Positions 501 to 63,900 of a DNA stretch of 64,000 nucleotides are shown here, piece after piece. The notes beneath the pieces were generated by a model. It did not search any database and was not told the DNA's origin. It was given only the letters and a program-made list of their open reading frames with translations. Position 1 is the stretch's first letter. Every line of letters begins with the position of its first letter. Source of the DNA: Pontibacter pudoricolor (GTDB lineage Bacteria; Bacteroidota; Bacteroidia; Cytophagales; Hymenobacteraceae). The DNA is taken from contig NZ_CP048106.1 of NCBI RefSeq assembly GCF_010092985.1, positions 2,480,001-2,544,000 of the forward strand. The letters are read 5' to 3'. A program made the position numbers and the translations under genes.

Positions 501-640
501 CCGCTTGTTTGAGCGCAGCGGTAACTGGTGGTGGAGCATGGCAGCCAGTTTGTAACTGGCGAAACTATAGTTTGGGTTACGCGCCAGTTACAAACTGGCA
601 CCACAGCAAGCCACAAGTTGCGCTGGCGCTAAACTTGCGG
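501..640. repeat. 140-bp imperfect inverted repeat (REP/MITE-like hairpin)
   Basis: Bases 544-561 (GCCAGTTTGTAACTGGCG) are a perfect 18-bp inverted repeat of 582-599. The loop contains the palindrome AACTATAGTT at 563-572. Outside the perfect stem the complementarity continues imperfectly to CCGCTTGTTTGAGCG on the left (from 501) and its counterpart ending AAACTTGCGG on the right (to 640). Each arm is itself partly self-complementary (CCAGTT...AACTGG). That nested structure is typical of REP/BIME elements or a miniature transposable element. No transposase or RAYT gene is in the window. Confidence 0.7.
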
Positions 641-739
641 CATGATGAATTTATAATATTCCATTATTATATTAGGTTATAGTTGTATAATAATTAAGAA
701 ATTAATATATTTAATTGACATCAACCAAAACTACAGAAA

Positions 740-1837
740 ATGGACTTTATAGACTCAATCAAAGCACTATCTGAAAAGGTAACAAGGCTGCAAAACAGTA
801 TCCATACTGAAGAAGCAACGAAGAATGCATTTATTATGCCTTTTATAGCGGCTTTAGGCTATGATGTTTTCAATCCACATGAGGTAGTTCCGGAATTCAT
901 TGCTGACTTGGGCATAAAGAAAGGAGAAAAGGTTGATTACTGTATTTTCAAAGATGATAAAGCCATCATTATTATTGAATGTAAGCACTGGAAAGAAGAT
1001 CTGAATGTACATAACAGTCAGTTGCACCGATATTTCCATGTTACCACCTCTAAGTTTGGCATACTTACTAATGGTATAATTTATAAGTTCTATACTGACT
1101 TGATAGAACCGAATAAGATGGATGACAAGCCCTTCTGGGAGTTTAATATCACTGAGATTACTGATGTTGCCGTAGCAGAATTAAAAAAATATCATAAAAG
1201 CACATTTGATATTGACAAGATCTTGAATGCTGCCACCGAGCTAAAATATAATCGGGAAATCAAAAAGATTATGTTGGAAGAAATGAATAATCCAACAGAT
1301 GCTTTTGTCAGACACTTTGCCAAGCAGATACATTCAGGTGTATTGACAGCCAAAGTAATGGAGCAGTTTACAGGTATAGTTAAAAAAGCTCTAAATCAGT
1401 ATGTGAGCGACTTAATTTCTGACAGATTGAAATCAGCACTTCAGAATGAAGCTAAGCGAGACTTTGCGGATACAGTATCCCTAACGCCTGAAAAGGATGC
1501 TGTTCTACCTGAAGAATCTGCTGAAAGTAAGGTAGTGACTACAGAGCTTGAGAAAGAAGCATTTTATATTGTTCGCTCTATTCTGAGAACTCAGTTCGAT
1601 ATAAACAGAATCGTTTACCGGGATGCACAGAGTTACTTCAGTGTATTAGTAGATGATAATAACAGAAAACCTGTTTGCAGATTATTCCTGGAAGGTATTA
1701 AGAAAAGTATTGTCGTGTTCGATGAAAACAGAAAGGAAACCAGGCACGAATTAACTTCCTTAGATGATATCTATTTATATACAGAGCAGTTAATTGCAAC
1801 GGCAACAGGGTATGATTCTAAAAAGGCAACAACGTAG
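740..1837 (+). CDS. Orphan type I restriction R-like N-terminal nuclease-domain protein
   Basis: This 365-residue protein matches the stand-alone HsdR N-terminal-like family (HSDR_N_2, COG4748-type). It opens with a helical segment containing EEATKNAFIMPFIAALGYDVFNPHEVVPEF, then a PD-(D/E)xK core: D66 in KVDYCIF and E80-C-K82 in IIIIECKHW. A conserved LHRYFHVTTSKFGILTNG strand follows. No helicase, methylase or specificity gene adjoins it, so it is not an ordinary type I system. The C-terminal third (about 270-355) is a separate conserved block of unknown role. The gene is visibly more AT-rich than its neighbours and lies between a hairpin repeat and a terminator, which suggests transfer. The target is unknown; defence is possible but unproven. 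Confidence 0.75.
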   Translation: MDFIDSIKALSEKVTRLQNSIHTEEATKNAFIMPFIAALGYDVFNPHEVVPEFIADLGIKKGEKVDYCIFKDDKAIIIIECKHWKEDLNVHNSQLHRYFHVTTSKFGILTNGIIYKFYTDLIEPNKMDDKPFWEFNITEITDVAVAELKKYHKSTFDIDKILNAATELKYNREIKKIMLEEMNNPTDAFVRHFAKQIHSGVLTAKVMEQFTGIVKKALNQYVSDLISDRLKSALQNEAKRDFADTVSLTPEKDAVLPEESAESKVVTTELEKEAFYIVRSILRTQFDINRIVYRDAQSYFSVLVDDNNRKPVCRLFLEGIKKSIVVFDENRKETRHELTSLDDIYLYTEQLIATATGYDSKKATT

Positions 1838-1857
1838 ATTTAATTAACGATAAATAA

Positions 1858-1906
1858 TTAGGCCCACATTCCTCTATGATAAGTAGAATGTGGGCCTTAC
1901 TTTTTC
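1858..1906. terminator. Bidirectional intrinsic terminator between convergent genes
   Basis: AGGCCCACATTC (1860-1871) pairs perfectly with GAATGTGGGCCT (1886-1897) across a 14-nt loop. A T-rich tract (1901-1905) follows on the plus strand, and an A-rich tract precedes the stem. It can therefore stop transcription of both the nuclease gene and lpxB, whose stop codon begins at 1922. Confidence 0.85.
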
Positions 1907-1921
1907 TAAGGAAGTACTACT

Positions 1922-3034
1922 CTACCCCCTCAAATAACCCACCATCAATTCAGCGGCGCGTTCGGCGGTGCGGTACTCTCCTATTTTCTCACGCACAAGG
2001 GCGTAGCCTTCCTTTTGTTTTTTGATGAAGACCCTGTCGAAGAGGATGCTTTTTAGCTCGGCTGTTACCTGTTTTCCGGTAAAATCGTCCTGAATCAGTT
2101 CGGTGACTACCTGTTTGCCGGCAATCAGGTTTACCAGCGAAATGTAAGGTACTTTTATGACCAGCTTCCCAATGGTGTAAGATATTTTACTGGTTTTGTA
2201 GCATACCACCTGCGGCACATTAAACAGGGCTGTTTCGAGAGTGGCTGTGCCCGACGTAACCAAAGCTGCTACCGAGTGCGAGAGTAGGTCGTAGGTCTGG
2301 TCGTATACTATTTTAATATTCTTGTCTTTGTTGTACTGCTCGTAATACTCCTTGCCAAACGTAGACACGCCGGCCACTACAAACTGGTAATCGCGAAACG
2401 ACGGGAGCACGCTCAGCATCACATCCAGCATGTTCTCAATTTCCTGGGCGCGGCTGCCGGGCAATATGGCAACTATAGGTTTGTTGTTGAGCAGCCTGTT
2501 CTTAAGCCTGAAATCCGGATTGGCCACGTGGTCGGTTACCGAATCCGAAACCGGGTTGCCGATGTAGTCTACCTCGTAATCAAAGCGCTTGTAGAACTCC
2601 TTCTCAAACGGCATGATCACGAACATGCGGTCCACTACTTTTTTAATATTGTGGGCACGTCCCTGGTTCCAGGCCCAGACCTTCGGGGAGATGTAATAGA
2701 AAACCTTAAGCCCTTTACTTTTGGCAAATTTGGCGATGCGCAGGTTAAAACCGGCATAATCTACCAGTATCACCACATCGGGTTTATAGTTGGCGATGTC
2801 GGCTTTGGCTTCTTTCATGTAGCCAAAAATCTTGCGCAGGTTTTTCGCCACTTCGGCAAAGCCCATAAAAGCCATGTCCTGGTAATGGCGCACCAGCTCC
2901 ATGCCGGCTTCCTGCATCATATCGCCGCCCCAGCCACGTATTTCAGCCCCCGGGTCTTTCTTCCGGAGTTCTTTAATAAGATTGGAACCATGCAAATCAC
3001 CTGATCGCTCGCCAGCTATAATGTAGTATTTCAT
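1922..3034 (-). CDS. lpxB: Lipid-A-disaccharide synthase
   Basis: This glycosyltransferase (family GT19) condenses UDP-2,3-diacylglucosamine with lipid X to form the tetraacyl disaccharide of lipid A at the inner membrane. The 370-residue length is usual. Family blocks are clear: MKYYIIAGERSGDLHGSNLI at the N terminus (commonly GEASGD elsewhere), GFNLRIAKFAKSKG, YYISPKVWAWNQGR, the GNPVSDSV segment, and the sugar-nucleotide site LPGSRAQEIENMLDVML. The later block ALVTSGTATLETALFNVPQVVCYKTS is diagnostic. It is the last gene of a probable four-gene operon (BtuF-like, FecCD, QueD-like, lpxB) with a gap of 61 bp, and it ends at a shared terminator. Confidence 0.97.
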   Translation of the reverse strand: MKYYIIAGERSGDLHGSNLIKELRKKDPGAEIRGWGGDMMQEAGMELVRHYQDMAFMGFAEVAKNLRKIFGYMKEAKADIANYKPDVVILVDYAGFNLRIAKFAKSKGLKVFYYISPKVWAWNQGRAHNIKKVVDRMFVIMPFEKEFYKRFDYEVDYIGNPVSDSVTDHVANPDFRLKNRLLNNKPIVAILPGSRAQEIENMLDVMLSVLPSFRDYQFVVAGVSTFGKEYYEQYNKDKNIKIVYDQTYDLLSHSVAALVTSGTATLETALFNVPQVVCYKTSKISYTIGKLVIKVPYISLVNLIAGKQVVTELIQDDFTGKQVTAELKSILFDRVFIKKQKEGYALVREKIGEYRTAERAAELMVGYLRG

Positions 3035-3095
3035 GTAATGCAGAAACGTAATGGGCTACCTGAACAGGTATAAGCGCACTAAAATTAAAAGGAAA

Positions 3096-3512
3096 TTATT
3101 CTCCGAAGTACTCCACGTAGTTGCGCGGGGTTTCGTAAAGTTTAAGGCTGTGCAGTTTTGCGTTGGATATCTGCTCTATCTGTGGCGCCAGGATGTTCCA
3201 GAACTCAACGATCAGGTTCTCGGTGCTGGCCAGTTTGCCTTCCATAAAAGGCACGTCCAGGTTCAGGTTTTTGTGGTCAACCTTGTCTATGATGTGCGTA
3301 CGAATTAAAGTGCTTAGCTTTTTAAGGTCGATCACGAAACCGGTATCGGGTTCCGGCTTGCCTTTTACGGTAACTATGAGCTCATAATTATGCCCATGCC
3401 AGTTGGTATTTGCACACGGCCCGAATACCTCCTTGTTCTTCTCCATCGACCAATTCGGGTTGTGCAGCTTGTGGGCTGCATTAAAATGCTCTAATCTGCT
3501 AACGTAAATCAT
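3096..3512 (-). CDS. 6-pyruvoyl-tetrahydropterin synthase / QueD family protein
   Basis: The 138-residue protein has the T-fold enzyme signature. Predicted zinc ligands are H14 in FNAAHKL and H39 and H41 in WHGHNY. C33 in FGPCANTNWHGH is the likely catalytic cysteine, and the YETP motif near the C terminus holds the substrate-binding glutamate. QueD makes 6-carboxytetrahydropterin from dihydroneopterin triphosphate for queuosine synthesis, whereas PTPS makes pyruvoyl-tetrahydropterin; the sequence alone does not decide. Its start abuts the stop of the FecCD permease (3513), so they are probably cotranscribed. No queC, queE or queF gene is nearby. The link to a transporter is curious but may only be operon convenience. 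Confidence 0.85.
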   Translation of the reverse strand: MIYVSRLEHFNAAHKLHNPNWSMEKNKEVFGPCANTNWHGHNYELIVTVKGKPEPDTGFVIDLKKLSTLIRTHIIDKVDHKNLNLDVPFMEGKLASTENLIVEFWNILAPQIEQISNAKLHSLKLYETPRNYVEYFGE

Positions 3513-4520
3513 TTAACTGCTAAACTTGTAATTTTTTCTGGACAGCAAATATACAAAGAAAGGAACACCAAAGAACGATGTGATGATTCCAATTGGCAGT
3601 CCGGTGGGCGGATATATTATTCTGGAGAGTAAATCGCAGAGCAGCATGAACAAACCGCCCACAAAAGCGCAGAAAAGCAGGTTGCTCCTGCCAGTAGTGC
3701 CCAGCAGCCCGCGCGTTACATGTGGAACAATAAGCCCCACAAACCCGATAGGCCCGGAAGTAGCCACGGCAAAGCCCGTAACTATAGAAACGGTAACAAG
3801 TATAGCCCAGCGCGTATGCGACACCTGCACGCCCAGCGCCTGCGCCCTTTCGGAGCCCAGCATGAGTATATTCAGCTGTTTTTGCAGGAAGGCGAAAAGA
3901 AACAGCGCAACTATAAGCGCCACAGCCGGGTATGGCAGCAAGGTCCAGCTGGCCCGCTCAAAACTCCCCATACTCCAGAAAATAACCGACTTCAGTTTGC
4001 CTTCCGAATCAGAGAGAAAAGTAAGCAAACCCACCATAGCCGTACAAAGCGAGCTGATAGCAATACCAGCCAGCAGCAACTGCGCAGGAATCAACTGGCG
4101 TTTGCGGTAACCGAGTACCACCACCACCAGCGTAACTATAAAAGCACCCGCCATGGCCAGCACCGGCGGCATGTAAAAACTACCAACCGTTATCTCCACA
4201 AACCCAAAGAAAACCAGCACCGCACCTAACGAAGCCCCCGAAGCCGTTCCCAACAAATAAGGATCTGCCAGCCCGTTGTTCACCATGGCCTGCATCAGAT
4301 AACCGCAAAAAGCCAGCGAAGCACCCACCACCAAAGCCAGCAGCAAGCGCGGCAAACGCAGATGAACTATAGCGTAATGGGTAGTATTGTCGGGGTTATA
4401 GTTCAGGAAGGCTTCGGCTATAGTTGAAAGATCCGACTCAAAAGAACCCACCTGCAGGCCCAAAACTATAACTATAGCAATGAGCAGCAGCGCAAGTATA
4501 AAGTACAGGCTGCGCATCAT
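3513..4520 (-). CDS. FecCD/BtuC-family ABC transporter permease (iron-siderophore or cobalamin)
   Basis: A 335-residue polytopic inner-membrane protein with about ten hydrophobic helices. It carries the family blocks RLPRLLLALVVGASLAFCGYLMQ, NNGLADPYLLGTASGASLGAV, and the late SGPIGFVGLIVPHVTRGLLG that contacts the ATPase. It would pass a metal chelate delivered by the binding protein encoded just upstream; the two genes overlap by four bases (ATGA), implying translational coupling. The matching ATPase gene is absent from the window, so the importer must borrow one from elsewhere. Substrate (heme, siderophore or corrinoid) cannot be told from the permease. Confidence 0.93.
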   Translation of the reverse strand: MMRSLYFILALLLIAIVIVLGLQVGSFESDLSTIAEAFLNYNPDNTTHYAIVHLRLPRLLLALVVGASLAFCGYLMQAMVNNGLADPYLLGTASGASLGAVLVFFGFVEITVGSFYMPPVLAMAGAFIVTLVVVVLGYRKRQLIPAQLLLAGIAISSLCTAMVGLLTFLSDSEGKLKSVIFWSMGSFERASWTLLPYPAVALIVALFLFAFLQKQLNILMLGSERAQALGVQVSHTRWAILVTVSIVTGFAVATSGPIGFVGLIVPHVTRGLLGTTGRSNLLFCAFVGGLFMLLCDLLSRIIYPPTGLPIGIITSFFGVPFFVYLLSRKNYKFSS

Positions 4521-5431
4521 GGGTACAGAAATCCTTCCAGTTCTCTGATCGATTCCACAATTCTTGGTCCCGGCCGCTCTATCAGGTTGCCGGTTGGCGC
4601 GTAAATTCTGTTGGTCTGGTAGGCTTTTATTTTGCGCAGTTCCGGGTACTGGCTGAAAAAGGTTTGCTCCAGTTTCTCTTTCGTGCCGCCCATCAACACA
4701 TCGGGGTTCAGCTTTAAAATATACTCGCGGGTAAGCGCCGGGTAAGGCTGGTCGAATGTTTCCTTTACCGCGTTCTCAGCTCCTAAAATGCGGAGCTTGT
4801 CTGTCAGCAGCGTGTTTTTCCCATACACATAGATCGGGTCCGTCCAGGTTATCGTCAGCACCTGAAGCTTATTCTGATGGTTTTTATAGTTGGCTTCGAG
4901 TTGCTTTACTTCTTTTCTCAGGGAATCTGCCAAGTGATTAGCTACCTGCTCACGTCCCATGATACGGCCAATGTCTTCTATACCCTTCAGTACATCTTCT
5001 ACGGTTCTGTACTTCTGGTAATATACCGGAATGCCCAGTTCTTCCAGTCGGGCAGCATCATCCAATGGTGTCATCCCTTCGCTGGTAAAGATCAGGTCGG
5101 GTTTCAGGGCGAGCACCTGTTCCAGATCTACGGGGTAATTGCTGACGACAGGTTTGGTGTAAACGGCGGCAGGGTAATCGCAATCTGGTGTTCTGGCTAT
5201 GATGTTGGCGGTATCAACTATAGCAAACAGCATTTCGGTCATCGCCGATGTGAAGCCGAAAACACGCTCTGGTTGTTTAGCCAGGTGTAGTTCGCGGCCC
5301 AGGTCATCGGTTATTGTTATGCCCTGCTCCTGCCCTGCCTGCTCCTGTTTTTGCTGACAACCAACTATAGTTAGCCCTGCAACTATAAAACACAGCAAGT
5401 GTAAAGTATAAACTATAGTTTTGTTCTTCAT
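4517..5431 (-). CDS. ABC transporter substrate-binding lipoprotein, BtuF/FepB-like
   Basis: I place the start at the ATG at 5431, which gives a lipoprotein signal: MKNKTIVYTLHLLCFIVAG, then a lipobox ending in Cys (TIVG-C). Fourteen more residues could be read upstream but would spoil the signal. The mature part has the class III binding-protein pattern: ITITDDLGRELHLAKQPERVFGF, LALKPDLIFTSEG, the long connecting helix ADSLRKEVKQLEANY, and LNPDVLMGG. It is anchored to the periplasmic face and feeds the FecCD permease encoded downstream, overlapping it by four bases. Ligand is probably an iron chelate, heme or corrinoid. Confidence 0.9.
   Translation of the reverse strand: MKNKTIVYTLHLLCFIVAGLTIVGCQQKQEQAGQEQGITITDDLGRELHLAKQPERVFGFTSAMTEMLFAIVDTANIIARTPDCDYPAAVYTKPVVSNYPVDLEQVLALKPDLIFTSEGMTPLDDAARLEELGIPVYYQKYRTVEDVLKGIEDIGRIMGREQVANHLADSLRKEVKQLEANYKNHQNKLQVLTITWTDPIYVYGKNTLLTDKLRILGAENAVKETFDQPYPALTREYILKLNPDVLMGGTKEKLEQTFFSQYPELRKIKAYQTNRIYAPTGNLIERPGPRIVESIRELEGFLYP
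5363..5420. repeat. Two exact copies of palindrome AACTATAGTT inside a signal-peptide coding region
   Basis: AACTATAGTT occurs at 5363-5372 and 5411-5420, with a truncated AACTATAA between them, all within the first 25 codons of the binding-protein gene. Here the palindrome encodes parts of the hydrophobic signal (TIV). It illustrates the window-wide repeat described in the findings. Confidence 0.8.
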
Positions 5432-5458
5432 CGGGGCAGGACCTGCTCTTGATATTTT

Positions 5459-5470
5459 CGTAAATTTACG
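5459..5470. promoter_or_regulatory. 12-bp perfect palindrome between divergent genes
   Basis: CGTAAATTTACG is a perfect palindrome in the 64-bp space between the divergent starts at 5431 and 5496. TAAATTTA within it differs by one base from the Bacteroidetes -7 box TAnnTTTG on both strands. It could be a two-way promoter element or a dimeric repressor operator. No binding protein is known from the window. Confidence 0.4.
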
Positions 5471-5495
5471 CAAAATCTAACATAGCCCTAATTCT

Positions 5496-6461
5496 ATGAT
5501 CGTAGTAACCGGTGCTGCCGGGTTTATTGCCAGTTGCCTGGTAAGCCGATTGAATGCAGCGAACTTTAATGATATCGTGGTGGTGGATAATTTCTCTGTC
5601 GCTAAAAAAGAAGATAACCTGAAAGGTAAAAAGATAAAGGAGTTTGTTGACCGCGATCACTTTATAGCGTGGTTGGACAAGCACTACGAAGACGTAGAAT
5701 TCATCTTCCACCTAGGCGCCCGCACCGATACCACCGAGTTTAACAAAGACGTATTCGACCTGCTGAACCTGAACTACTCCAAAGCCATCTGGAATGCCTG
5801 CTGCGAGTATCAGATTCCGTTGGTTTATGCTTCTTCGGCAGCTACTTATGGCTCCGGCACGCTGGGTTATGACGATGACGAAGCAACTATTCCGTTACTG
5901 AAACCGCTAAACCCCTACGGCGATTCTAAGAACGATTTCGATATCTGGGCTTTGCAGCAAACGGCAAAACCTTTCTTCTGGGCTGGCCTGAAATTCTTTA
6001 ACGTGTATGGTCCGAACGAGTATCACAAAGGCAAAATGGCATCGGTTATTTTCCATGCCTACAACCAAATAAAGGCCCATGGCAGCATGAAACTGTTCCG
6101 CTCGCACCACCCCGATTTTAAGGACGGCGAGCAGATGCGCGACTTTGTGTATGTAAAAGATGTGGTGGAAGTTTGCATGTTCCTGATGCATCACCGCAAA
6201 AACTCCGGCATCTATAACTTAGGCTCCGGTCAGGCCCGCACGTTTATGGCACTGGCGCTAAATACTTTCGAAGCGATGGGCGTAACCCCAAACATCGACT
6301 TCATGGACACCCCCGAAAACCTGCGCGACAACTACCAGTATTTCACCGAAGCCAACATGAACAAACTCCGTTCCATCGGCTACGATAAACCATTCTATAG
6401 TTTGGAAGAAGGCGTGAAGGATTATGTGCAGGGTTATTTGATGCAGGGGAAGTATTATTAG
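5496..6461 (+). CDS. hldD: ADP-L-glycero-D-manno-heptose 6-epimerase
   Basis: A 321-residue short-chain dehydrogenase-type epimerase that converts ADP-D-glycero- to ADP-L-glycero-D-manno-heptose, the activated heptose of the LPS inner core. The NAD(P)-binding site is GAAGFIAS at residues 6-13. Catalytic residues are in YASSAATYG (about 111-119) and the Y141-x3-K145 pair in NPYGDSKNDFD. The substrate loop FFNVYGPNEYHKGKMASV, and QMRDFVYVKDV further on, are typical of HldD rather than GalE. It is divergent from the transporter operon. Being near lpxB fits an envelope-lipid neighbourhood. No other heptose gene is present. Confidence 0.93.
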   Translation: MIVVTGAAGFIASCLVSRLNAANFNDIVVVDNFSVAKKEDNLKGKKIKEFVDRDHFIAWLDKHYEDVEFIFHLGARTDTTEFNKDVFDLLNLNYSKAIWNACCEYQIPLVYASSAATYGSGTLGYDDDEATIPLLKPLNPYGDSKNDFDIWALQQTAKPFFWAGLKFFNVYGPNEYHKGKMASVIFHAYNQIKAHGSMKLFRSHHPDFKDGEQMRDFVYVKDVVEVCMFLMHHRKNSGIYNLGSGQARTFMALALNTFEAMGVTPNIDFMDTPENLRDNYQYFTEANMNKLRSIGYDKPFYSLEEGVKDYVQGYLMQGKYY

Positions 6462-6462
6462 T

Positions 6463-6701
6463 AATTGTCTGAATCGGGATTAATGGAGGTTTTTGGGATT
6501 GGCAGGATTATGGTTCAACATAAAACTATAGCCCCAACTATTGTACAGCCAGAAAAGCCCCCTCCTTAGACAAGTAGGGGCCGGGGTGGTTGGACCACCA
6601 AAACTATAGAACTATGTCTCAAACGCTTGCAGTAGCTGCGCACACTGCTAGGTTAAAATCCCGTTAATCTTTTCATCCTGAAAATCCTGATTCAGACAAT
6701 T
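6463..6701. repeat. MITE-like element with terminal inverted repeats
   Basis: AATTGTCTGAATC (6463-6475) is a perfect inverted copy of GATTCAGACAATT (6689-6701). The match extends over the next six bases with one mismatch (18 of 19). Inside are repeat phrases often seen in Bacteroidetes intergenic DNA: a GGATTTTCAGGATGAAAAG-type phrase on the right arm, read on the minus strand, and the CCCCTCCTT...AGGGGCCGGGGTGG phrase at about 6559-6594. AACTATAG occurs near 6525 and 6603. There is no coding capacity; it fills the 283-bp space between hldD and the next gene. Confidence 0.65.
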
Positions 6702-6744
6702 AATTTAAATAACTAACTTGATAGCTGCATTTAAATTCATAACC

Positions 6745-7203
6745 ATGAAATACCTTTTCACACTAGCCATATTTTGCTGCATCGGTTTTACAGCTAATGC
6801 CCAGTCGCAGAACCCTAACTATAACAAAGCACTTGCTGACTCACTTGGCGCTGACGATTATGGCATGAAACAGTATGTGCTGGCTATACTTAAAACCGGC
6901 TCCAACACCACCACCGACAAAGAGAAACTTAACGGCTACTTCCGGGGCCACATGGAAAATATTGGCAGACTGGCAAAAGAAGGAAAATTAGTAGTAGCTG
7001 GTCCACTTGGCAAAAATGACAGGAACTACCGCGGCATTTTTATTCTGAACGTAAAAACTGTGGAAGAAGCGGAAAAATTAGTGGAAACTGACCCGGCTGT
7101 TAAAGCTAGGATATTTGACATCGAACTATATCCGTGGTACGGTTCAGCTGCCTTACCGATGTACCTGGATACGCATAAGGTTATAGAAAAGCAGAATCCC
7201 TGA
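6745..7203 (+). CDS. Secreted YCII-related domain protein
   Basis: The ATG at 6745 gives MKYLFTLAIFCCIGFTANAQ, a clean Sec signal peptide with predicted cleavage at ANA-Q. A TTG at 6718 is open in frame but would precede the signal and is unlikely. The mature part resembles the YCII/dimeric alpha-beta barrel fold: MKQYVLAILKTGSN, then HMENIGRLAKEGKLVVAGPLG, then RGIFILNVKTVEEAEKLVETDPAVKA. YCII proteins are usually cytosolic, so export is notable; biochemical role unknown. Its TGA stop shares bases with the outer end of the GxxExxY element. Confidence 0.75.
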   Translation: MKYLFTLAIFCCIGFTANAQSQNPNYNKALADSLGADDYGMKQYVLAILKTGSNTTTDKEKLNGYFRGHMENIGRLAKEGKLVVAGPLGKNDRNYRGIFILNVKTVEEAEKLVETDPAVKARIFDIELYPWYGSAALPMYLDTHKVIEKQNP

Positions 7204-7861
7204 CCAGTGATTAAGGGGATTTGGCTGATTTTTATGATTTTTGTCTGAACTATAAAATCAGGCTACAGTTTAGTCCAACTTTGCTGAACTCTATTTATGA
7301 TAGTTAGGATTTATACTTAGCATTATAAAGTCTTCTAAACTCGAGACTCTTTGCTCCAAAATTTATCAACAACCCTACTTCCAGTTTGTAGGCTTCCAGG
7401 TAGTTGATGGCTTGTGCAGAGTGAGCATCTTCTAATTTAGTAACTGCCTTTAGTTCAACAGGTATTTTATTTTCAACCAGGAAATCTACTCTTCTGCTGC
7501 CAATCTTCTCGCCTTTATAATACACAGGTGCATCGTACTCCCTGATTACCTGTAGGTTTCTTAAACCCATCTCCTTCTCAAGCGCCCTTTGGTAAATTAT
7601 CTCATGAAATCCATTTTTCAATGTAGCATGTACCTCCATTGCAGCACCTATAATCTGAGAAGTTAGATCTGAATATTTATAGTTAGATGAAGAATTTATA
7701 GTTATGGCCGATTGCAACTTATCCATAGTTAAGCTATTCATTGTTCGCCTAACTATAAAACCAACCATTAAATTCAGTAACACATAAAATATCCGACTAA
7801 AAGATTTAAATTACTTAGACAGAAATCAGAAAAATCAGTTAAATCCCCTTAATCACTGGTC
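7202..7861. mobile_element. GxxExxY nuclease cassette bounded by 45-bp inverted repeats
   Basis: The left arm 7202-7246 and the inverted right arm 7817-7861 agree at 41 of 45 bases, the outer 21 perfectly (both begin GACCAGTGATTAAGGGGATT). They enclose a single gene, the GxxExxY protein. The outermost bases are shared with the stop codons of both flanking convergent genes: GA of TGA at 7201-7203, and G of TAG at 7861-7863. I see no target-site duplication and no transposase, so movement would need help from outside, or the arms may be a paired terminator. The arms share the GTCTGAA/GGATT wording of the repeat at 6463-6701. Confidence 0.6.
7304..7741 (-). CDS. GxxExxY family protein (PD-(D/E)xK nuclease-like)
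   Basis: Read from an ATG at 7741; ATGs at 7783 and 7726 are also possible, and the N terminus is poorly fixed. Counting from the 7783 start, the family motif is G58-F-H-E61-I-I-Y64, preceded by the typical LTSQIIGAAMEVHATL helix. A PD-(D/E)xK-like core follows: D100 in RRVDFLVEN, E110-L-K112, then the QAINYLEAYK helix. The family is common and multicopy in Bacteroidetes genomes; its biological role is not established to my knowledge. It is the only gene inside the inverted-repeat cassette. An endonuclease fold beside inverted repeats suggests a part in the element's own spread, but this is inference. Confidence 0.88.
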   Translation of the reverse strand: MNSLTMDKLQSAITINSSSNYKYSDLTSQIIGAAMEVHATLKNGFHEIIYQRALEKEMGLRNLQVIREYDAPVYYKGEKIGSRRVDFLVENKIPVELKAVTKLEDAHSAQAINYLEAYKLEVGLLINFGAKSLEFRRLYNAKYKS

Positions 7862-15046: not shown

Positions 15047-15112
15047 GATCTAACAGTTTATCCCACGAATTTAACTAAAACGCAGGATAAGGCCTATTGA
15101 TTCAGTACAGAT

Positions 15113-15499: not shown

Positions 15500-15758
15500 T
15501 CTTGTTTTTCTTGTTGCTCTTGTACCATAAAAAGCCTACAGTTCCGATCAGGATGTATGGTATCGCCATCAGGTACAGGATACCTGTGTTCAACCCGGAA
15601 CCGACTGCAGTATCAGACTCTGCTTTGCCTGTTCCCACATTAGACTCAACTGTGGCTCGGCACATGGCGCACTGGCTATAGCTGTTTGTAGCTGTGGCAA
15701 GTACTAGCCCCAACACAAAAACTATAGTTGCCAAACCTTTGATCGTTAACTTTTTCAT
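15483..15758 (-). CDS. 91-residue exported membrane mini-protein with CxxC, in the oxidase operon
   Basis: MKKLTIKGLATIVFVLGLVLATATNSYSQ is a signal peptide. Right after it comes CAMCRATVESN, so a CxxC pair would sit at the mature N terminus in the periplasm. A single membrane helix follows (ILYLMAIPYILIGTVGFLWY) and a Lys/Asn-rich tail. No named family comes to mind, although I recall similar QCAMCRA proteins from other Bacteroidetes. It lies between DUF420 and DUF983 at the end of an operon that also encodes SCO, so a redox or copper-handling role in oxidase maturation is a reasonable guess, not shown. Confidence 0.7.
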   Translation of the reverse strand: MKKLTIKGLATIVFVLGLVLATATNSYSQCAMCRATVESNVGTGKAESDTAVGSGLNTGILYLMAIPYILIGTVGFLWYKSNKKNKNGGTN

Positions 15759-54471: not shown

Positions 54472-54500
54472 CAGCAACTATAAACTATAGCCTGTATTGC

Positions 54501-54534
54501 AAAAGCCCTGACCACAAGTCAGGGCTTTTTGTTT
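54501..54534 (+). terminator. Intrinsic terminator of the second M14 gene
   Basis: AAAAGCCCTGAC (54501-54512) pairs perfectly with GTCAGGGCTTTT (54518-54529) across a 5-base loop, followed by TGTTTT. It lies 30 bases after the stop. Confidence 0.9.
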
Positions 54535-54931
54535 TAAGTATCGTCGTGAATTACAATTTTCCTTCCAAGCCCCTTCGATAGCAGAAACCACAAAACAGAT
54601 ACCTGGCGAATTTAAATAGTTATAAAAAAATATAGTTTAAATTATAATTACGAACGACCGTTATTTTTCCTTTTTATTAAGGTATTAATATATTATAGTT
54701 AGCTTATTTATTAGTTTTCAACACTATAGCAGTATAAAAAATTGCTACGGGAGAAACTATAATTTGTTATTATTGCTTTACAGATCAGCTCAAACTTTCT
54801 AAATATTATACTAATTAAGTTATTGATACATCAAACATAACGCATGTTGAATACATCAATAATTTATATGTTTTTAGTGCAATTTATTTTGATAGTAGAC
54901 CAATTATAGTACACAGTTATACGAATTGCTT
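54535..54931. other. Very AT-rich leader region of the giant repeat protein
   Basis: Nearly 400 bases without a credible gene, among the most AT-rich of the window. Several TATAGTT/AACTATA variants occur (for example near 54695 and 54756). I could not fix a promoter with confidence; ATTTATTTTG near 54886-54895 resembles a -7 box with one mismatch. Confidence 0.45.
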
Positions 54932-57900
54932 ATGAGAATACTTCTACCGCTGGTGTTCACTTTATTGTTTTTAGGGTTTTTACCATCAGCTGCATTATCG
55001 CAATGTCAGCCGCCTTCTGTTACCCTTCCGGATGACATTGGTTACTGCGGCCCGAGAGCTATAGCTTTTAGCACAACCAACCCAGCCCATACGCCGAAAT
55101 ATTCTAACGATGCCCTAACGTATTCCTGGAAGCTGAACGGAACTGTGGTAGCAACTACTGCTTACCCAACTATAAACTTCCCGACACCGGGCACACACAC
55201 CGTTACTGTTACGGTTACCAAGCGTTGCGGAAGGGATGAAATTGCAAGAGCCGAGGATACACAGCTTATAACGATAGAAGCAATTCCGGCTGCACCTGAT
55301 GTGGATGACATGGCCGTATGTACAGGAAGCAATGCCACGCTATGGGTAAACAATGCAGACCCGAACCTGATCTATAAATGGTATAACAAAAGCACAGGCG
55401 CATTGCTGGTATGGGGCACCTCTTATACTATGAACAACGCCAGCTATATGCAGGTAGAGGTAGAGGCTATAACAGCCAACGGATGTACTTCTCCCCGTAC
55501 TACAGCAACTATAACTTCCTCTTTAACCAACGGAAATGCAACCATACTGAACGGTAACCAGGAAATATGCGCCGGCACCAGGCCCCGCACCATTGATGGC
55601 AACGCACCCCAGAACATGACCTTTCAGTGGTTACAAAGCACTACAGGTGCCGGTTCCGGATATAGCCCAATTGCATCAGCTACCGACAAAAGCTACTCAC
55701 CTCCCCCACTTTACCAAACTACCTGGTACAAAAGAATAGCTTACAACGGCGGTTGCGGCGAAGAAACCAACCCGGTAAAAGTAACTGTAACAGCCATCCC
55801 TCCCACACCAATCGTTTCTGACCAGCTGGTATGCTCTGGCGAGCGGGCCCGGTTTGTAGTTTCGAACAACGATGGCAACACGATTTATAATTGGTATGCC
55901 ACAGCCACCAGCACTACTATGCTGGGCACCGGGCCAACTTTTATAACACCTCAGCCAGTAACAGGTCCGGTAACATATTATGTAGAAGCCACAACTACTG
56001 CACAGACACAGTGCTTTAACACAACCCGGATTGCAGTAAATGCCAATGCAACACCAGTTATTGCTAATAACAGTATTTCGGCAAACCAGGCCATGTGTAC
56101 CGGTGGCAAGCCGGAACCCCTGATTGGCACTACACCAACAGGCGGTGGCGGTGGCTACATTTACCAGTGGCAGCAAAGCACAGATGGCAACACGTTTACG
56201 GATGTGCAGGGAGCCAATGCCAAAGACTTTGCGCCTGCTTCGCTTAAGGTTACGACCTGGTTCCGAAGAACCATAAAGGCGGCCAGCAGCTGCCCGATGA
56301 ATATAAGTAATATAGTTGTTGTAACGGTTACGCCAATGCCTGCAACTATAGATATTGATGATCCGATGATTTGTTATGGGTCCCCGGCCTCTATAGTTGT
56401 AACCAACCCTGAACCTGACTTTACTTACCGCTGGTACGATGTTGCCGAAGGCGGGACGTTGCTGGCTACGGGCACAACCTATACGACAACCCCACTTACA
56501 TCAAGCAAAACGTTTTATGTAGAGGCCACTTCCGATGCCGGTTGTTATAGTGTGCGCCGTTCTGTGGAAGTAACAGTTACTGCCTTACCTGGTGTACCAA
56601 ATGCGGCCAATATCACTATCTGCGAAGGCACCAACGCTATACTGGCCGTAGAACCTACCGATGCCGCAATCTTCTACAGATGGTATGACAGCAACAATAC
56701 ACTTGTCGCTACAGGCATCAACTATAGCACTCCTCCGCTAACCGTTAACACAACCTATTATGTAGAGGCCGTAACAAAAGCTTCGCCGGGCTGTGCAAGT
56801 CCTAAAGTAGCCGTAGAAGTTACTGTAACACCAAAAATAGACGGAAATACTATCTCTACTGACCAGGTACTTTGCAGCGGTGCCAAGCCTGCTCCGCTGC
56901 AAGGCACCGTACCAACTGGTGGCGGCGGCGGTTATACCTACCAGTGGGAATATAGCATAGACGGAAGTTTATTCTATACGATAACAGGAGCTACAGGCAT
57001 ACACTTTGCCCCAGGCGCTCTAACAGCCACTACCTGGTACCGCCGAAAGGTGAACGCTACAGGCAGCTGTAAAACGTCTGTAAGTAACCTGGTTAAGATC
57101 ACTGTAAATCAATTACCTGGCGCTCCTACAGCCACAAGCACTTCTATCTGTACCGGTTCCGGAGTTACGCTGGCTGTAAACAGCCCGGATGCCAACCTGA
57201 CTTACAAATGGTACAGCACGGCCACAGGTGGTTCAGCCATTGCAACAGGCAGCACCTATAATACAGGCATCCTCACATCAGGCAAAGATTATTATATTGA
57301 GGCTACTTCTGCCACTGGTTGCGTTAGCCCGGCCCGTGGAAAAGTATCTGTAACGGTTATCCCGCTTCCTGCTACCCCGGAGGCCGACAATGCCTCGGTT
57401 TGCGCGGGTGCTACGGTAACACTAAAAGTACTTGCTCCTGATGCCAACCTGGTTTACCGCTGGTATAACGATGATACGGACGGAACACTGCTTGCAACCG
57501 GCACCAACTATACAACCGAAGCCCTGGCTGAAAGCTCCATTTTTTATGTAGAAGCATCAACCGTTGAAGGCTGCACGAGTTCTGACAGAAAGCCGGTTTA
57601 TGTGAACGTAACGCCATTGCCAGCTATCCCGGATGTATCCAACACAACTATCTGCTCCGGCGATGCGGCAGTGTTATTTGTAAACAACCCGGACCCTACG
57701 GCAACTTATCACTGGTACCTGGGCGGCTCGTTGCTTGCATCGGGTGTTACCTTCACTACTGATATTCTGGCTTATAGCACCACCTACCACGTAGAGGCCG
57801 TTTCGAATACAACAACTGCCTGTCCGAGCCCTGCACGTCGTGCGGTGGTAGTTACTGTTACGCCGAACATTGCCAATAACACTATCAGCAGCGCGCAAAC

Positions 57901-60900
57901 TATCTGTAGCGGAGGCACGCCATATACGCTAACAGGCACGCAGCCAACCGGCGGAAGCGGAACCTATACGTACCAGTGGGAAAGAAGCGAAGACGGCACA
58001 AACTTTTCCAGTATTGCCGGAGCCGTTAATTCCACTTACAGCCCGGGTTCGCTAACTATAACTACCTGGTTCAGAAGAAAAGTAAAAGCAGCTGCAGGCT
58101 CCTGCCCTGAACATGTAAGCACCCCGGTTAAAATTACCGTATCTCCTCAGCCAACTACACCAACTGCTCTTAACACTACTGTTTGTAATGGAGAAAGAGC
58201 ACAATTAAGCATTTCAACACCAGACCCGTCGCTGACTTACAAGTGGTACAGCACGGCAACAGGCGGAAGTCCGGTAGGCGTTGGTGCTACCTTACTTACA
58301 GAAACCCTTACAGCTACTACTACTTATTATGTGGATGCTACCAGCACAACTGGCTGCACCAGCAACAGAAGAGCCGTAACTGCTACAGTAAGACCACTAC
58401 CTGAAATGCCGCAGGCGCTGGATAAAACTATCTGCGCAGGAAGCAGCACAACCTTATCTGTAACAAACCCGAACGCAACGCTGGCCTATCGCTGGTTCAA
58501 CGCAAGTGGCGACCAGGTAGCTACCGGAACTACATTCACAACTGCTGCGCTGCAAACTACTACTACCTATTATGTAGAAGCATCAACAGTAACCAACCCT
58601 GTTTGTGCCAGCCCACGCAAAGCAGTAGTTGTATCTGTAACACCTATCCCGGGCATGCCTGCGGCTGAAAGTGTAGCTATCTGTACGGGAAGCGCGGCTG
58701 TGCTTACAGTTACCTCTCCTGATGTATCGTTTACTTACAACTGGTACACTTCTGCTACAGGAGGTTCTGCCATTGGCACAGGTACTTCGTTCAACACCGG
58801 CACCCTTACTTCAGCCAGATCGTTTTACCTGGAAGCTGTAACAGCTGCTGGTTGTGTGAGCGCACGTTCTAAAGTTGATGTTACCGTAACGCCACTTCCT
58901 GCAACACCAACAGCAGACAATGTATCGATCTGTGCCGGCGCTCCGGCCACCCTGACAGTAAAAGACCCAGTTGCCAATGTTTCGTACAGATGGTACACTG
59001 CGGCAACCGGTGGCACGTTACTGGCAACAGGCAACAGTTACGCTATTGGCTCTGTAGCAGCAACTACAACCTATTACATAGAGGCAGTAACTACAGGCGG
59101 ATGCGCCAGCACTTCACGTGGAACGGTTACGGTACAGGTTACGCCATTGCCGGCTACTCCGAATGCTGATAACGCTACCGTTTGTGCAGGCAACAGCACT
59201 ACCCTTTGGGTGAAGAACCCGGAGCCTGGCCTGATCTATCGCTGGTACCAGGATGGCGTACAGATTGCAACAGGCATTTCTTACACTACCGAAGTGCTGA
59301 ACTATAGCGCGACATACCAGCTTGAGGCTGTCACAAACAACAGCAACGCCTGCGTCAGCGCTTCGCGCCGTACCGTTAGTGTTACCGTTACGCCAGCCAT
59401 CACAAACAACATTATCTCTGCAGACCAGAACATTTGCAGCGGCACGGCACCGGCAACCTTTACCGGAACACTGCCGGCCGGCGATGGCAGCGACTTCTCG
59501 TACCAATGGGAGCGCAGCGAGGACGGGGTTAACTTCTCGATCATCGCAAATGCAACCGGACAGTCTTATACAGCGGGAGCTTTAAATGCGACAAGCTGGT
59601 TCAGAAGAAGAGTAAAGTCAAACAATAACTGCCCAGAACATGTCAGCAACGTTGTTAAAGTAACTATAAACCAACTGCCCGCTACCCCGCTTGCTGATAA
59701 CGCCACTACCTGTGAGGGAAGCACCGCTACGTTAAGCGTTAAAGACCCGAACGCTGCATACACCTATCGTTGGTACACAGTAGCTACCGGGGGCAGCATA
59801 CTGGGTGTTGGCACCACTCTTACCACACCTGCTGTAACTACCAATACTACTTATTATGTAGAAGCATCCAACGCGACAGGTTGTTTAAGCCCACGCAAAG
59901 CAGTTACGGTATCAGTAACGCCATTGCCAACAGCTCCGGTAGTAAAAGACCGCAGCATTTGCGTAAACGAGCAGGCTATTCTGGCGGTAAGTTCTCCAAA
60001 TGCAACCCTGATCTACCGTTGGTATAACAGCGCCGGAAACTTGTTAGCAACCGGCCCTACCTATACCACCGATGCGCTTTCAGCCAACACTGTTTACTAT
60101 GTAGATGCTGCAACTATAGCAACGCCATCTTGCATAAGCAACCGCAGTACGGTTATAGTAAGCGTAACGCCATTACCAGCAACGCCACAGGCAACTGATG
60201 TAACCGTATGCTCGGGCAGCACGGCAGACCTTGCCGTGAAAGATGTTGACCCGAACCTGACCTATAAGTGGTATAGTACAGCAAACGGCGGAACAGCGCT
60301 GCATACAGGCTCTACTTACAGAACGACAACGTTAACCTCAGGCAGAACATATTACATTGAAGCTGTAAATGCTGCGGGCTGCATAAGCACATCGCGCAAA
60401 GCCGTATCTGTAAATGTTATTCCTATTCCATCTGCTCCGGTTGTAAATAACACCACCATTTGTGCAGGCAGCAGTGCTACCCTGACTATAACAGCACCGG
60501 ATGCCTCGCTTACCTACCACTGGTATGATAATACCGGTAACCTGCTAGGCTCTGGCACTTCGTTTAACACAGGAGCACTAAGCAGCACTACCAACTATAG
60601 TGTGGAAGCTGTTGCCCTTGCTACTACCGGTTGTAACAGCACACGCCGCACGGTAACGGTAACAGTAACGCCATTGCCAGCTACGCCGGAAGTAAACCAG
60701 CCTACTATCTGCGCCGGAGCTACGGCAACCCTGGTTGTACAAAACCCGGTACCATCTGTAAACTATAACTGGTATGATGGAAACGAGAACCTGATCACGA
60801 CCGGGACATCGTTTACGACAGGCACACTTACTGAGAGCTCGCTATATTACGTGGAAGCTGTGACCAGTAACGGTTGCGCCAGCCCGGCCAAAGAAGTGGT

Positions 60901-63900
60901 AACTGTAAAAGTGCTGCAGCCGGTAAGCAACAACGCCATCACAGCTGAACAGGTCATTTGCTATGCGAGCGCACCAACTACACTTAGCGGAACCGAGCCA
61001 CTGGCAGGAGGCGCTAACTATAGTTACCAGTGGGAGAAGAGTGAGGATGGCCTGAACTTTACAACTATAACCGGTGCCACCACGCAACACTATAGTCCGG
61101 AAGCACTTACAACCGATACCTGGTTCAGAAGAAAAGTAGTAACCGATGGCCCTTGCAAAGAGAATAACAGCAACATAGTAAAGATAACTGTAACGCCTCT
61201 TCCTGCTGTACCAACTGCTGCCAATGCTACTGTCTGTGCGGGCTCATCTGCCAGCTTAAGCATATCCGGTGCGGTAGCAAACTATACATACCGCTGGTTT
61301 AATGCCGCAAGTGGCGGAACAGTGTTGAGATCCGGAGTTACCTTTACCACCCCGGAACTACAGGCAACTACCACTTACTATGTAGAGGCAATTAACGAAG
61401 CCGGATGTATAAGCCCAAGAAGAGCTGTAACTGTAACCGTAACCCCAATGCCTGGTGCGCCTGTGGTTGCCAACAAAACCGTTTGTTCAGGCACCCCGGC
61501 CGTTCTGAGTGTCAGTGCACCGGATCAGTCGCTGGTTTATAAATGGTATAACAGCATCGGTGAGCAGGTAGCTTCCGGCGCTACTTTCAACACTGGCAGC
61601 CTAACTACTACTACAACATATTATGTGGAAGCAGCCACTACAAGCGCTCCTTTCTGTGTAAGCAGCCGCAGCACCGTTATAGTTACCGTAACCGATCTGC
61701 CAACTATACCTGTAGTTGAGAACACCAGTGTTTGCGCAGGCGAGACAGCTACGCTTTCTGTTCTTGTTGTAGATCCGGCCTATACTTATAAGTGGTATAC
61801 TTCGGCAGCAGGCGGAACAGTAGTTGGCTCCGGCGCTACTTACAACACAGGTGCCTTAACATCAGACAGAACCTATTATGTAGAGGCTGTTTCGGCGGCA
61901 GGTTGTGCCAGCCAGCGGGCAAAAATTGCTGTAACTGTAACGCCACTGCCAGCTGCTCCTTCTGCGGATAATGTTAGCATTTGCGCAGGTCAGCCGGCAA
62001 CACTGGCTATAAACGCACCGGATGCTAACCTGTCTTACAGATGGTATAACGCGGCTACCGACGGAACGCTGCTGGCAACCGGCGACACGTACACAACCGG
62101 AAGCCTGTCAGTTAGCGAGACCTACTATGTAGAGGCGGTAACAGCCACAGGCTGCGCCAGCACAACCCGCAAAGCAGTAACCGTAAATGTAACGCCACTG
62201 CCAGCTACGCCAGTAACCGAAAATGCTTCTATCTGCGCGGGCAGCAGCACTACCCTGTGGGTGAAGAACCCGGACCCTACGGCATACTATAACTGGTATA
62301 GCGGTGGCGCGCTGGTTGGTACCGGCATTTCGTTTGCTACCGGTGTGCTCAACTATAGCGCAACATATTATGTAGAAGCAGTCAGCAATACGGGTACAGC
62401 CTGCAGCAGCGCTTCGCGCAGCGCGGTAACTGTAACTGTTACGCCGGCTATTTCCAACAACTTCATCACTGCAGACCAGAATATTTGCAGCGGCAGTTCA
62501 CCAGCTACACTGACTGGCTCGTTGCCAAACGGTGGAGGCGGAAACTATAGTTACCAGTGGGAACGCAGCGAAGATGGCGTAAACTTTACAGCCATCAGCA
62601 ATGCCACCACACAAAACTATAGCCCGGCTGCCCTTAACATTACTACCTGGTACAGAAGAAAAGTAAAAGCAGTTGGCCCATGCGGCGAGCAGGTGAGTAA
62701 CACGATCCAGATAACTGTTCAGCCGATACCAGCTACTCCGGTTGCCGACAACACAACAATTTGTGCTGGCGCTACTGCTACGCTGAGCGTAAAAGATGTA
62801 ACTCCTGGCTATACCTATCGCTGGTACACGACACCAACCGGCGGAAGCGCAATCGTAACCGGAACATCTTTCACAACTACACCATTGGAGAGCACAACCA
62901 CCTACTATGTAGAAGCTGTGAATGCGACAGGTTGTATCAGCTCAAGGAGAACAGTTTCTGTAACGGTAATGCCTTTACCGGAAGCCCCGATGGTAGCAGA
63001 CCAGAATATCTGCGCCGGCGAACAGGCCATACTGGCAGTAGAGAACCAGACCGCCAGCCTGACCTACCGCTGGTACGATAGCAACGGAACTTTACTTGCA
63101 ACAGGAACATCCTACACGACCGCCACACTAAACAGCAACGCTACTTATTATGTAGAGGCAGTTACGTCTGGTGCGCTAAGCTGCGCAAGTGGCCGAACTA
63201 TAGTTGCTGTAAATGTTGCTACCAGACCTGCCACTCCGCTTGCTGATAACACCAGTGTTTGTGCAGGCTCATCGGCCCAGCTTTCTGTGAAGAGTATCAT
63301 CCCGGGCATTACTTATAAGTGGTACACGGTAGCAACCGGCGGAACTCCGGTATTTATTGGATCTGCTTACACTACGGCTGCCCTTACTTCTAACAGAACC
63401 TATTATGTAGAGGCATCAACAGCGTCGGGTTGCACCAGCGAGAGCCGCAAGGCAGTTACGGTGACGGTTATTCAGCAGCCAGCCATGCCGGCTGTAGCCG
63501 ACCAGACCATTTGCCAGGGCAGCGAAGTTGTACTGACAGTTTCTAACCCGGATGCCAGCCTGATGTACCGCTGGTACAACCAGGGCGGAACGGCCTTAGC
63601 AACCGGTACTTCCTACACCGCACGCGGACTGACAGTTAACACCATGTTCTATGTAGAGGCGGTAACAACTACTTCTCCTGGCTGCGTAAGTGCCCGCGAA
63701 ACAGTATATGTAACCGTAACGCCATCGCCGGCAGCACCGCTTGCCGATGATGCGAAGATCTGTGCAGGCTCTACAGCTACGTTGTACGTGAAGAACGCGA
63801 CACCAGCTGTTGTGTACAAGTGGTACGATGACACAGAAACATTACTGCACACTGGTACAACCTTCACAACTCCGGTGCTTGCTGCCGATGCCATTTACTA

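Follow-up and report, generated by a model that had tools for sequence, protein, structure and literature searches.

DNA uptake sequences, as far as the partly available sources go, have been described in two proteobacterial families, the Pasteurellaceae and the Neisseriaceae. With such words, cells of Neisseria and Haemophilus recognise DNA from their relatives and import it. The core of the Pasteurellaceae sequence (USS) is non-palindromic. To our knowledge, a route of uptake free of a pilus is known only from Riemerella. In reports on the DNA uptake sequence (DUS) dialects of the Neisseriaceae, a CTG core is fixed across dialects (PMC3630211), the receptor is ComP (PMC3868556), the word is absent from recently acquired genes and occurs about once per 1.1-1.5 kb (PMC2397512), and it is atypical in ICEs (PMC7371117). 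The predicted USS receptor is given as a type IV minor pilin (PMC12616744). HIP1 and the other HIPs are described as palindromic cyanobacterial words linked to orphan methylases (PMC4390886), and pilus-free natural transformation with ComEC is reported for Riemerella anatipestifer (PMC8459023).

The Pontibacter word described here behaves like the DUS dialects. The analogy with what is reported of them lies in an asymmetric short word with thousands of copies, dialects distributed along the species tree, an invariant core, word-free genomes within the family, conservation above the surroundings, placement in permissive positions and rarity in acquired DNA. The Pontibacter word differs in its TATA core, its Bacteroidota host, the lack of a recognised type IV pilus ATPase and a density in the window's genome of 2.7 units per kb (464 kb), which exceeds that given for Neisseria. 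Like the USS it is over-represented genome-wide and non-palindromic at its core, although sequence and host are different and the predicted receptor of the USS is a pilin. Riemerella belongs to the same phylum, has ComEC and is reported to have no pilus homologues, but the accessible text of its report makes no mention of an uptake word.

An asymmetric unit and its palindromic form

The window is the whole 64-kb stretch of Pontibacter DNA that was analysed. The original prediction singled out 12 exact copies of the 10-bp palindrome AACTATAGTT, and all 12 positions are correct. It also put chance expectation at about 0.1 copies in 64 kb, and dinucleotide shuffles (n=100) gave a mean of 0.10 and a maximum of 1. 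The features of the window are as follows; the palindromes and the word count carry no strand, and reading frames were obtained by arithmetic.

563..572: AACTATAGTT, two overlapping units, upstream of open frame 740-1837 (+)
5363..5372: AACTATAGTT, within open frame 4517-5473 (-) or immediately ahead of its true start
5411..5420: AACTATAGTT, same region, 48 bases from the 5363 copy
15720..15729: AACTATAGTT, in the gap separating frames 11336-15046 (-) and 15789-16346 (-)
33611..33620: AACTATAGTT, immediately ahead of frame 33650-34630 (+)
34057..34066: AACTATAGTT, within frame 33650-34630 (+), reading T-I-V
34186..34195: AACTATAGTT, within frame 33650-34630 (+), reading T-I-V
50234..50243: AACTATAGTT, within frame 48576-51272 (-), reading N-Y-S
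52404..52413: AACTATAGTT, within frame 51901-54471 (+), reading T-I-V
61016..61025: AACTATAGTT, within the giant open frame starting at 54926 (+), reading N-Y-S
62543..62552: AACTATAGTT, within the same giant frame (+), reading N-Y-S
63196..63205: AACTATAGTT, within the same giant frame (+), reading T-I-V
36875..39406, + strand: priA (TIGR00595, above its cut-off), outside the motif system; it served to anchor the genus tree and the comparison of orthologous stretches
1..64000: AACTATA, the basic word, 166 copies on both strands, 24 of them within the 12 palindromes

The 64-kb window contains no tandem repeats and no RNA family reaching its gathering score. Against a third-order Markov model on both strands it holds 24 copies of AACTATAGTT where 1.21 are expected (equivalent to 12 versus 0.6), 80 of AACTATAG (9.1 expected), 60 of AACTATAA (11.1 expected) and 166 of AACTATA (35.5 expected); the last three counts bear out the claim of truncated forms well in excess of 100. 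The enrichment is neither limited to the window nor close to the Markov-corrected expectation: the whole 4.34-Mb genome has 1,164 copies of AACTATAGTT and eight of the reversed control, and over a second-order Markov model in 464 kb of the genome AACTATA is enriched 14.5-fold, AACTATAG 43-fold and AACTATAGTT 151-fold.

In the window's genome the unit is the asymmetric 8-mer AACTATA[G/A], and AACTATAGTT is two such units overlapping with TATA in common. The palindrome was rejected as the basic unit: in the AGG dialect AGGTATACCT was observed 0 times with 1.2 expected, yet AGGTATAG is enriched 35-fold. In the AAG dialect A is favoured at position 8. Substitutions within TATA leave 0-1.7-fold enrichment and those within the first three bases 4-61-fold, so the TATA core is fixed. 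Flanks, palindromes and strand polarity were assessed together, polarity in 20 dispersed 20-kb regions; two of the stretches used in this analysis (L113 and L100) overlap by 7 kb. In the AAC dialect the flanks carry less than 0.035 bits of information at every position beyond the first base next to the 10-mer. With flanks this close to background, and with units on either strand, within genes as well as intergenic, across the genome, the word is, as had been proposed, no gene-family repeat. The original prediction had coding copies read T-I-V or N-Y-S only, and 29 and 9, respectively, of the 38 palindromes in called coding sequence do so, with none in the third frame; these counts and those of placement below depend on a crude gene caller, which called 75-77% of the sequence coding. 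The suggested poverty of the oxidase genes is also borne out: positions 16001-32000 of the window (genome 2496001-2512000) carry 14 units in 16 kb, whereas most of the stretches nearby have about 20-35 per 8 kb.

Dialects and conservation across the genus

Among 50 Pontibacter genomes, AAGTATAA is the word of 22 (2,246-7,030 copies; reversed control 80-196), AGGTATAG that of 12, again in thousands (2,823-5,222; control 65-133), and AACTATA that of five (AACTATAGTT 1,087-1,477; control 4-9). The remaining 11 are low, a label assigned after the counts were known, which includes G163 (87% complete, 1,201 copies of AAGTATAA) and G187, where the variants GGGTATA and AGGTATA are each enriched 4.9-fold in 82.5 kb. 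The labels AAC and AAG also cover mixed genomes (G161, G159 and G191). For G195 the whole-genome AAGTATAA count is the better one, as its stretch-based counts are inflated because the two stretches overlap (L126 lies within L066).

The four labels require nine changes on the priA tree versus 24.5 when shuffled. The AGG dialect forms one clade, on one side of a single branch with support 100/100, the AAC and AAG labels interleave within the clade of the window's species, and the low state occurs in several separate branches (five changes, three of them forced by well-supported branches). The dialects thus follow phylogeny around an invariant TATA core, and the spellings in other branches are new relative to the first reading of this DNA. 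The word carried by most of the Pontibacter genomes examined is A[A/G][C/G]TATA[A/G], short, asymmetric and genome-wide, with the palindrome as its most visible form.

The sites are conserved beyond their surroundings, as a comparison of orthologous stretches proposed in the original prediction makes evident. Between the window's genome and P. populi, 0.77 of 620 units are kept versus 0.58 of 3,993 permuted 7-mers, and the per-base identity is 0.949 in the unit and 0.873 in the flanks (control 0.905 versus about 0.90). Intergenic sites behave likewise, with 0.73 of 250 units and 0.60 of 1,121 controls kept. Against Tf4 the unit bases (0.807) are barely above the flanks (0.78). Conservation above flanks and controls supports the earlier suggestion that selection or a biased process maintains the word.

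Sites in relatives are frequently one base off, and in one genome the differences record an exchange of spelling. G159 is the sister of P. fetidus on the priA tree. It keeps 46 of the 98 sites common to P. fetidus and the window's genome, and 11 of its 23 single changes read AAGTATA, versus 3 of 109 in the C>G control (p = 1.1e-7). The spelling at shared sites is thus exchanged by a C/G transversion, with parsimony favouring the direction AAC to AAG. The C>G excess at shared sites is not significant with G164, G155, G184 or G191 as target, and at the 33 sites that Tf4 shares with P. burrus, AAGTATA accounts for just 2 of 9 single changes (control 4/51, p = 0.22). It is possible that parallel AAG to AAC changes took place elsewhere instead of a switch in G159, and this would apply under any drive.

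In the window's genome, a 40-kb integrated island adjoining a tRNA-Ser and a tyrosine integrase holds 20 units and no palindromes, with a mostly ordinary TATA content. DNA unaligned to P. populi has 2.26 units per kb versus 3.14 in aligned DNA, a mild overall depletion. The word is therefore rare in recently acquired DNA on this one island, and the contrast is milder across all unaligned DNA.

Proposed self-DNA uptake and its rivals

On balance, the word found in most of the Pontibacter genomes examined is somewhat more probably than not a self-DNA uptake tag with branch-specific spellings. The enrichment, dialects, fixed core, conservation, exchange in G159, permissive gaps, poverty of the island and presence of ComEC in all 50 genomes favour this reading; against it weigh the lack of a recognised pilus ATPase, a ComEC that does not discriminate, a direction of exchange that rests on parsimony, the mild depletion in unaligned DNA, the thin margin against Tf4 and the density, which is higher than in Neisseria. 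We infer uptake as the driver of the word. A putative surface or periplasmic receptor, part of a pilus-free Bacteroidota transformation machinery, would bind it, DNA from kin carrying the word would be taken up and recombined more often, and the word would then spread by molecular drive. If the taste of the receptor shifted, the genome would follow through single-base changes.

The ComEC domain has an internal stop in two of the 50 genomes (G167 and G186), one of which, G186, ranks third in its number of AGGTATAG copies. ComEC was discarded as the discriminating gene, being present in word-bearing and low genomes alike. No type IV pilus ATPase (PF00437) was recognised in the 50 genomes, with 31 of 27-45 candidates scored in most of them; there were only short partial matches, above the cut-off in three genomes (best 25.9 versus 24.9 bits). 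With no such ATPase recognised, the type IV pilus machinery was set aside as a source of the receptor, and a receptor of the class used by Neisseria is not available to these genomes. Ten frames scanned around comEC (L206) include a helicase, an acetyltransferase and PhoH, with no receptor candidate among them, and the families searched yielded no gene whose distribution tracks that of the word.

Alternatively, an abundant chromosomal protein acting in nucleoid organisation, segregation or global regulation could bind the word, with selection keeping thousands of sites; we regard this as rather unlikely. Conservation and a fixed core with tolerant flanks agree with it, the dialects could follow a drifting binding protein, and the excess of TT after AACTATAG (646 observed, about 176 expected, 3.7-fold, computed from the counts of the flank analysis) fits a dimer preferring both half-sites. 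However, units are sparsest in divergent, promoter-bearing gaps (3.51 per kb, versus 5.99 in tandem and 9.74 in convergent gaps), they show no replication-strand bias (551 leading and 525 lagging in the 20 regions, with strand taken from the sign of the GC skew), and 695 of 1,242 lie within called genes (464 kb). By extrapolation the genome holds more than ten thousand units, a heavy selective load, and the occurrence of low genomes in several separate branches fits a dispensable function.

Marking of the word by a DNA methylase, with enrichment through methylation-biased repair or selection as proposed for HIP1, is improbable. The HIP1 paper (PMC4390886) describes a comparable density, enriched one-off forms, a fixed centre and sporadic species with other words, all of which resemble the Pontibacter case. 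HIP words are palindromic, whereas the Pontibacter unit is asymmetric, and none of four methylase families separates word-bearing from low genomes among the 50. PF01555 is missing from four of the five AACTATA genomes. The window's genome lacks PF02086, as do 37 of 50 genomes, and PF00145 is missing from 27, its 23 carriers falling on both sides. PF02384 does not discriminate because all 50 genomes have it, and its long-frame members look patchy among the matches listed. A single PF02384 orthologue, an Eco57I-type enzyme (PF07669) or another kind of modification could still mark the word. The original idea of a HIP1-like palindrome with an orphan methylase is not supported by the asymmetry of the unit or by these four families.

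Chi sites are asymmetric, short, over-represented and lineage-specific. A Chi-like recombination signal, drifting between lineages with an AddAB- or RecBCD-type reader, would share these properties with the Pontibacter word, but the 43-fold enrichment of the 8-mer is greater than is known for Chi, and the replication-strand bias expected of Chi or of polarised octamers (KOPS) is missing from the 20 dispersed 20-kb regions, which makes this explanation more doubtful still. A short mobile element (MITE-like or REP-like) with the word as its conserved end is scarcely credible: thousands of copies and some clumping (390 spacings below 100 bases versus 257 expected) would suit it, but the flanks have no homology and the sites of relatives often differ by one base.

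Returning to the uptake tag, a fuller proposition is advanced tentatively, as somewhat short of an even chance: that Pontibacter takes up DNA sequence-specifically and independently of a pilus, in three or more dialects built around TATA; that this is the first watermark of self-DNA in the Bacteroidota, with a dialect switch caught in one living species; and that its sister genus Hymenobacter runs a system of this kind on different words. A literature search, with most subscription journals outside its range, found nothing linking Pontibacter with DNA uptake or describing a Pontibacter uptake word, and titles and abstract openings revealed no uptake word in Bacteroidetes. As a string in the literature, AACTATAGTT led to malaria papers, among the matches listed.

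If the uptake reading is true, the uptake-word strategy evolved independently in a phylum without a recognised pilus ATPase, and the 50 genomes, with three spellings, low branches and one intermediate species, would offer a natural setting in which to study how genomes track their receptors. The word would also serve as a marker for foreign islands and as a handle for transforming these bacteria. The low genomes (4.9-6.5 Mb, n=11) are larger than the word-bearing ones (3.8-5.5 Mb, n=39; p = 3.5e-6, uncorrected for kinship), a contrast that would open the long-standing issue of foreign-DNA exclusion by such words to testing.

A word and its distribution

All 12 copies of the palindrome AACTATAGTT predicted in the window are at the listed positions, against 0.10 when the window is shuffled. 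The source genome, a single contig of 4,344,619 bases with the window at 2480001-2544000, contains 1,164 copies against 8 for the reversed pattern; a priA search assigns it to Pontibacter, with P. populi HLY7-15 as the closest named relative. The HIP1-like palindrome of the original prediction has given way to a different unit. The word is an asymmetric 8-mer, AACTATA followed by G or A, and AACTATAGTT is two opposite-strand units with a common TATA, since in pooled stretches of five AAC genomes (dialects are named by their first three bases) enrichment falls from 45-fold for AACTATAG to 16-fold for AACTATAA, 6.6-fold for AACTATAC and 2.1-fold for AACTATAT, and since the flanks in a logo of 3,867 units from these stretches are near background past the first base outside the 10-mer. 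Identity with cyanobacterial HIP1 is ruled out, the Pontibacter unit not being palindromic.

Enrichment over a second-order Markov model in 464 kb of the source genome was 14.5-fold for AACTATA, 43-fold for AACTATAG, 16-fold for AACTATAA and 151-fold for AACTATAGTT. Single-base variants within the central TATA fell to as little as 0-1.7-fold, and variants in the first three bases were still enriched 4-61-fold. TT follows AACTATAG on its 3' side at 3.7 times the expected frequency, a ratio derived from AAC-genome counts. Enrichment in called genes persists after synonymous-codon shuffling (real versus shuffled: AACTATA, 453 versus 78; TATAGTT, 242 versus 23; palindrome, 38 versus 1.6), and the word shows no replication-strand polarity in 20 dispersed 20-kb regions. 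Convergent gaps are densest in units (9.74 per kb; tandem 5.99, divergent 3.51) and in palindromes (1.23, 0.64 and 0.09 per kb, respectively).

The predicted scarcity of copies in the oxidase genes was confirmed: the region carries few words even though all of it aligns with P. populi, which is consistent with constraint on the proteins. A further region, of ordinary GC and mostly ordinary TATA content, holds 20 units and no palindromes in 40 kb, where its neighbors hold 15-30 units per 8 kb:

genome 2368001-2408000 (stretches L111-L113), 40 kb: integrated island, one end near tRNA-Ser, tyrosine integrase adjoining
L113:7281-8351: tyrosine integrase beside the island

The island encodes HipA, AbiEii and SusC/D-type genes. 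Because this integrated DNA is nearly without the word, resident DNA would appear to gain the word slowly. The island is itself detectable through the near-absence of the word.

The window also has a second enriched word family, ATTATGTAGAGG and its kin, with 8-mers that include CTACATAA and TATGTAGA (17 copies on both strands versus 1.6 expected); the ATTATGTAGAGG family apparently belongs to a longer repeat. Two other features were encountered, the second through cross-matches in the synteny search:

window 54926-64000 and beyond: open frame of 4,137 codons stop to stop, from window 54899 to 3.3 kb past the window end
genome about 2348k, 2438k, 2549k, 2576k, 2583k and 2611k: dispersed element or domain of ~400-600 bases, copies ~68-78% alike

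Dialects across Pontibacter and beyond

In ~22.5-kb stretches around priA, many of the named species poor in AACTATA had abundant AAGTATA or AGGTATA, while others had neither in abundance. Whole-genome counts for 50 Pontibacter genomes bore this out, with 2,246-7,030 copies of AAGTATAA in 22 (reversed control, 80-196), 2,823-5,222 of AGGTATAG in 12 (control, 65-133) and 1,087-1,477 of AACTATAGTT in five (control, 4-9); 11 were low in all three. Mixed spelling occurs in three genomes of the clade to which the window belongs, with AACTATAGTT/AAGTATAA counts of 1,087/2,125 (P. fetidus, G161), 232/4,476 (its sister, G159) and 330/3,911 (G191). On the priA tree the dialect labels require 9 changes versus 24.5 when shuffled; AGG forms one clade, and the low state requires 5 changes, of which well-supported branches force 3. 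Low genomes are larger (4.9-6.5 Mb) than word-bearing ones (3.8-5.5 Mb; p = 3.5e-6, uncorrected for kinship). An AGGTATAG array of period ~66 bases at G147:C1:1944098-1946633, in another of the compared genomes, is perhaps tandem or CRISPR-like.

Outside the genus, where the palindrome was the spelling counted, 154 genomes of the same family had 0-8 copies of AACTATAGTT, and the highest count in an order-wide sample of 390 genomes (19 of the genus, 60 of the remaining family) was 46. The phenomenon may be family-wide with other words, since some of the sampled Hymenobacter stretches (which include L051 and L058) carry their own over-represented 8-mers. These are CCCTACCC in genome G012 (L209, L225-L228; 100 kb; 18-fold, a value raised in part by a tandem at L209:9323-9403), CTAGGCCA in G036 (L232, L233; 40 kb; 19-fold), CCCTAGGG in L060 (12 sites in 22.5 kb), ACCTAGGG in L052 and L053, and AGGGCCCC/GGGGCCCC in L056 and L075. 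Stretches of G015, G025 and G053 had no 8-mer as strongly enriched.

Conservation and exchange of spelling

In a 207-kb alignment with P. populi (88.6% identity), 0.77 of 620 units were intact versus 0.58 of 3,993 permuted 7-mers. The corresponding values were 0.50 versus 0.30 for P. fetidus, 0.48 versus 0.29 for Tf4, 0.52 versus 0.24 for P. burrus and, in the mixed genomes, 0.38 versus 0.25 for G191 and 0.32 versus 0.25 for G159; in the AAG species P. vulgaris, 0.15 of 33 units of the source genome were intact versus 0.21. Base identity with P. populi was 0.949 in units versus 0.873 in their flanks (permuted words, 0.905 versus ~0.90), a margin that is narrower in other genomes (Tf4, 0.807 versus 0.78). 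Units called intergenic were kept at 0.73 of 250 versus 0.60 of 1,121 controls in P. populi, 0.52 of 54 versus 0.29 of 334 in P. fetidus and 0.32 of 56 versus 0.30 of 352 in G159. Pointing in the opposite direction, at sites already common to two genomes the advantage was reduced or nil in several comparisons (source genome and P. fetidus to Tf4, 0.60 versus 0.60); for control words too, shared sites are slow-changing ones.

An 18.5-kb tree places G159 as the sister of P. fetidus (SH-aLRT 99-100), and the priA tree does so with weaker support (94/61). Among 98 AACTATA sites common to the source genome and P. fetidus, G159 has kept 46, reads AAGTATA at 11, differs by some other single change at 12 and by more than one change at 29; in permuted words under the same condition, C>G makes up 3 of the 109 single changes (p = 1.1e-7). 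Other pairs gave AAGTATA in 8 of 19 single changes versus 6 of 79 (source genome and Tf4; p = 0.0007), 4 of 16 versus 3 of 61 (source genome and P. burrus; p = 0.03) and 2 of 9 versus 4 of 51 (Tf4 and P. burrus; p = 0.22), and no comparison with G164, G155, G184 or G191 as target gave a significant excess. AAC and AAG are exchanged at identical sites through the single transversion that separates them, whichever the direction. By parsimony G159 turned AAC into AAG at old sites, the alternative being opposite, parallel changes in its relatives.

A candidate driver and known uptake systems

Published work on the DNA uptake sequence (DUS) of Neisseriaceae describes an invariant core and lineage-specific dialects, with the word conserved, placed in permissive locations and rare in acquired DNA (PMC3630211, PMC2397512, PMC7371117), as is seen here. 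Mutation and uptake bias have been argued to be enough for such words to accumulate (PMC1939737), and in Riemerella, another genus of this phylum, transformation proceeds without pilus homologs (PMC8459023). On these grounds we give slightly better than even chances to the view that the word is driven by sequence-biased DNA uptake and subsequent recombination; Pontibacter would then possess competence, a receptor and an uptake bias. The word works like DUS and the uptake signal sequence (USS) of Pasteurellaceae, with which it shares four genomic features (genome-wide over-representation, dialects on an invariant core, conservation above the flanks and, in the one island, rarity in acquired DNA). 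We do not class it with the known DUS or USS systems, since the uptake bias is putative and no type IV pilus ATPase was recognized in Pontibacter: among candidates scored in the 50 genomes, PF00437 gave short weak matches only.

Of the methylase families, PF01555 is missing in four of the five AAC genomes, PF00145 occurs in 23 of 50 genomes, PF02086 in 13 (the source genome not among them) and PF02384 in all 50. ComEC is likewise present in all 50, and two genomes with an internal stop in the comEC frame (G167:C1:2771217-2771876 and G186:C76:160505-161305) still bear the word.
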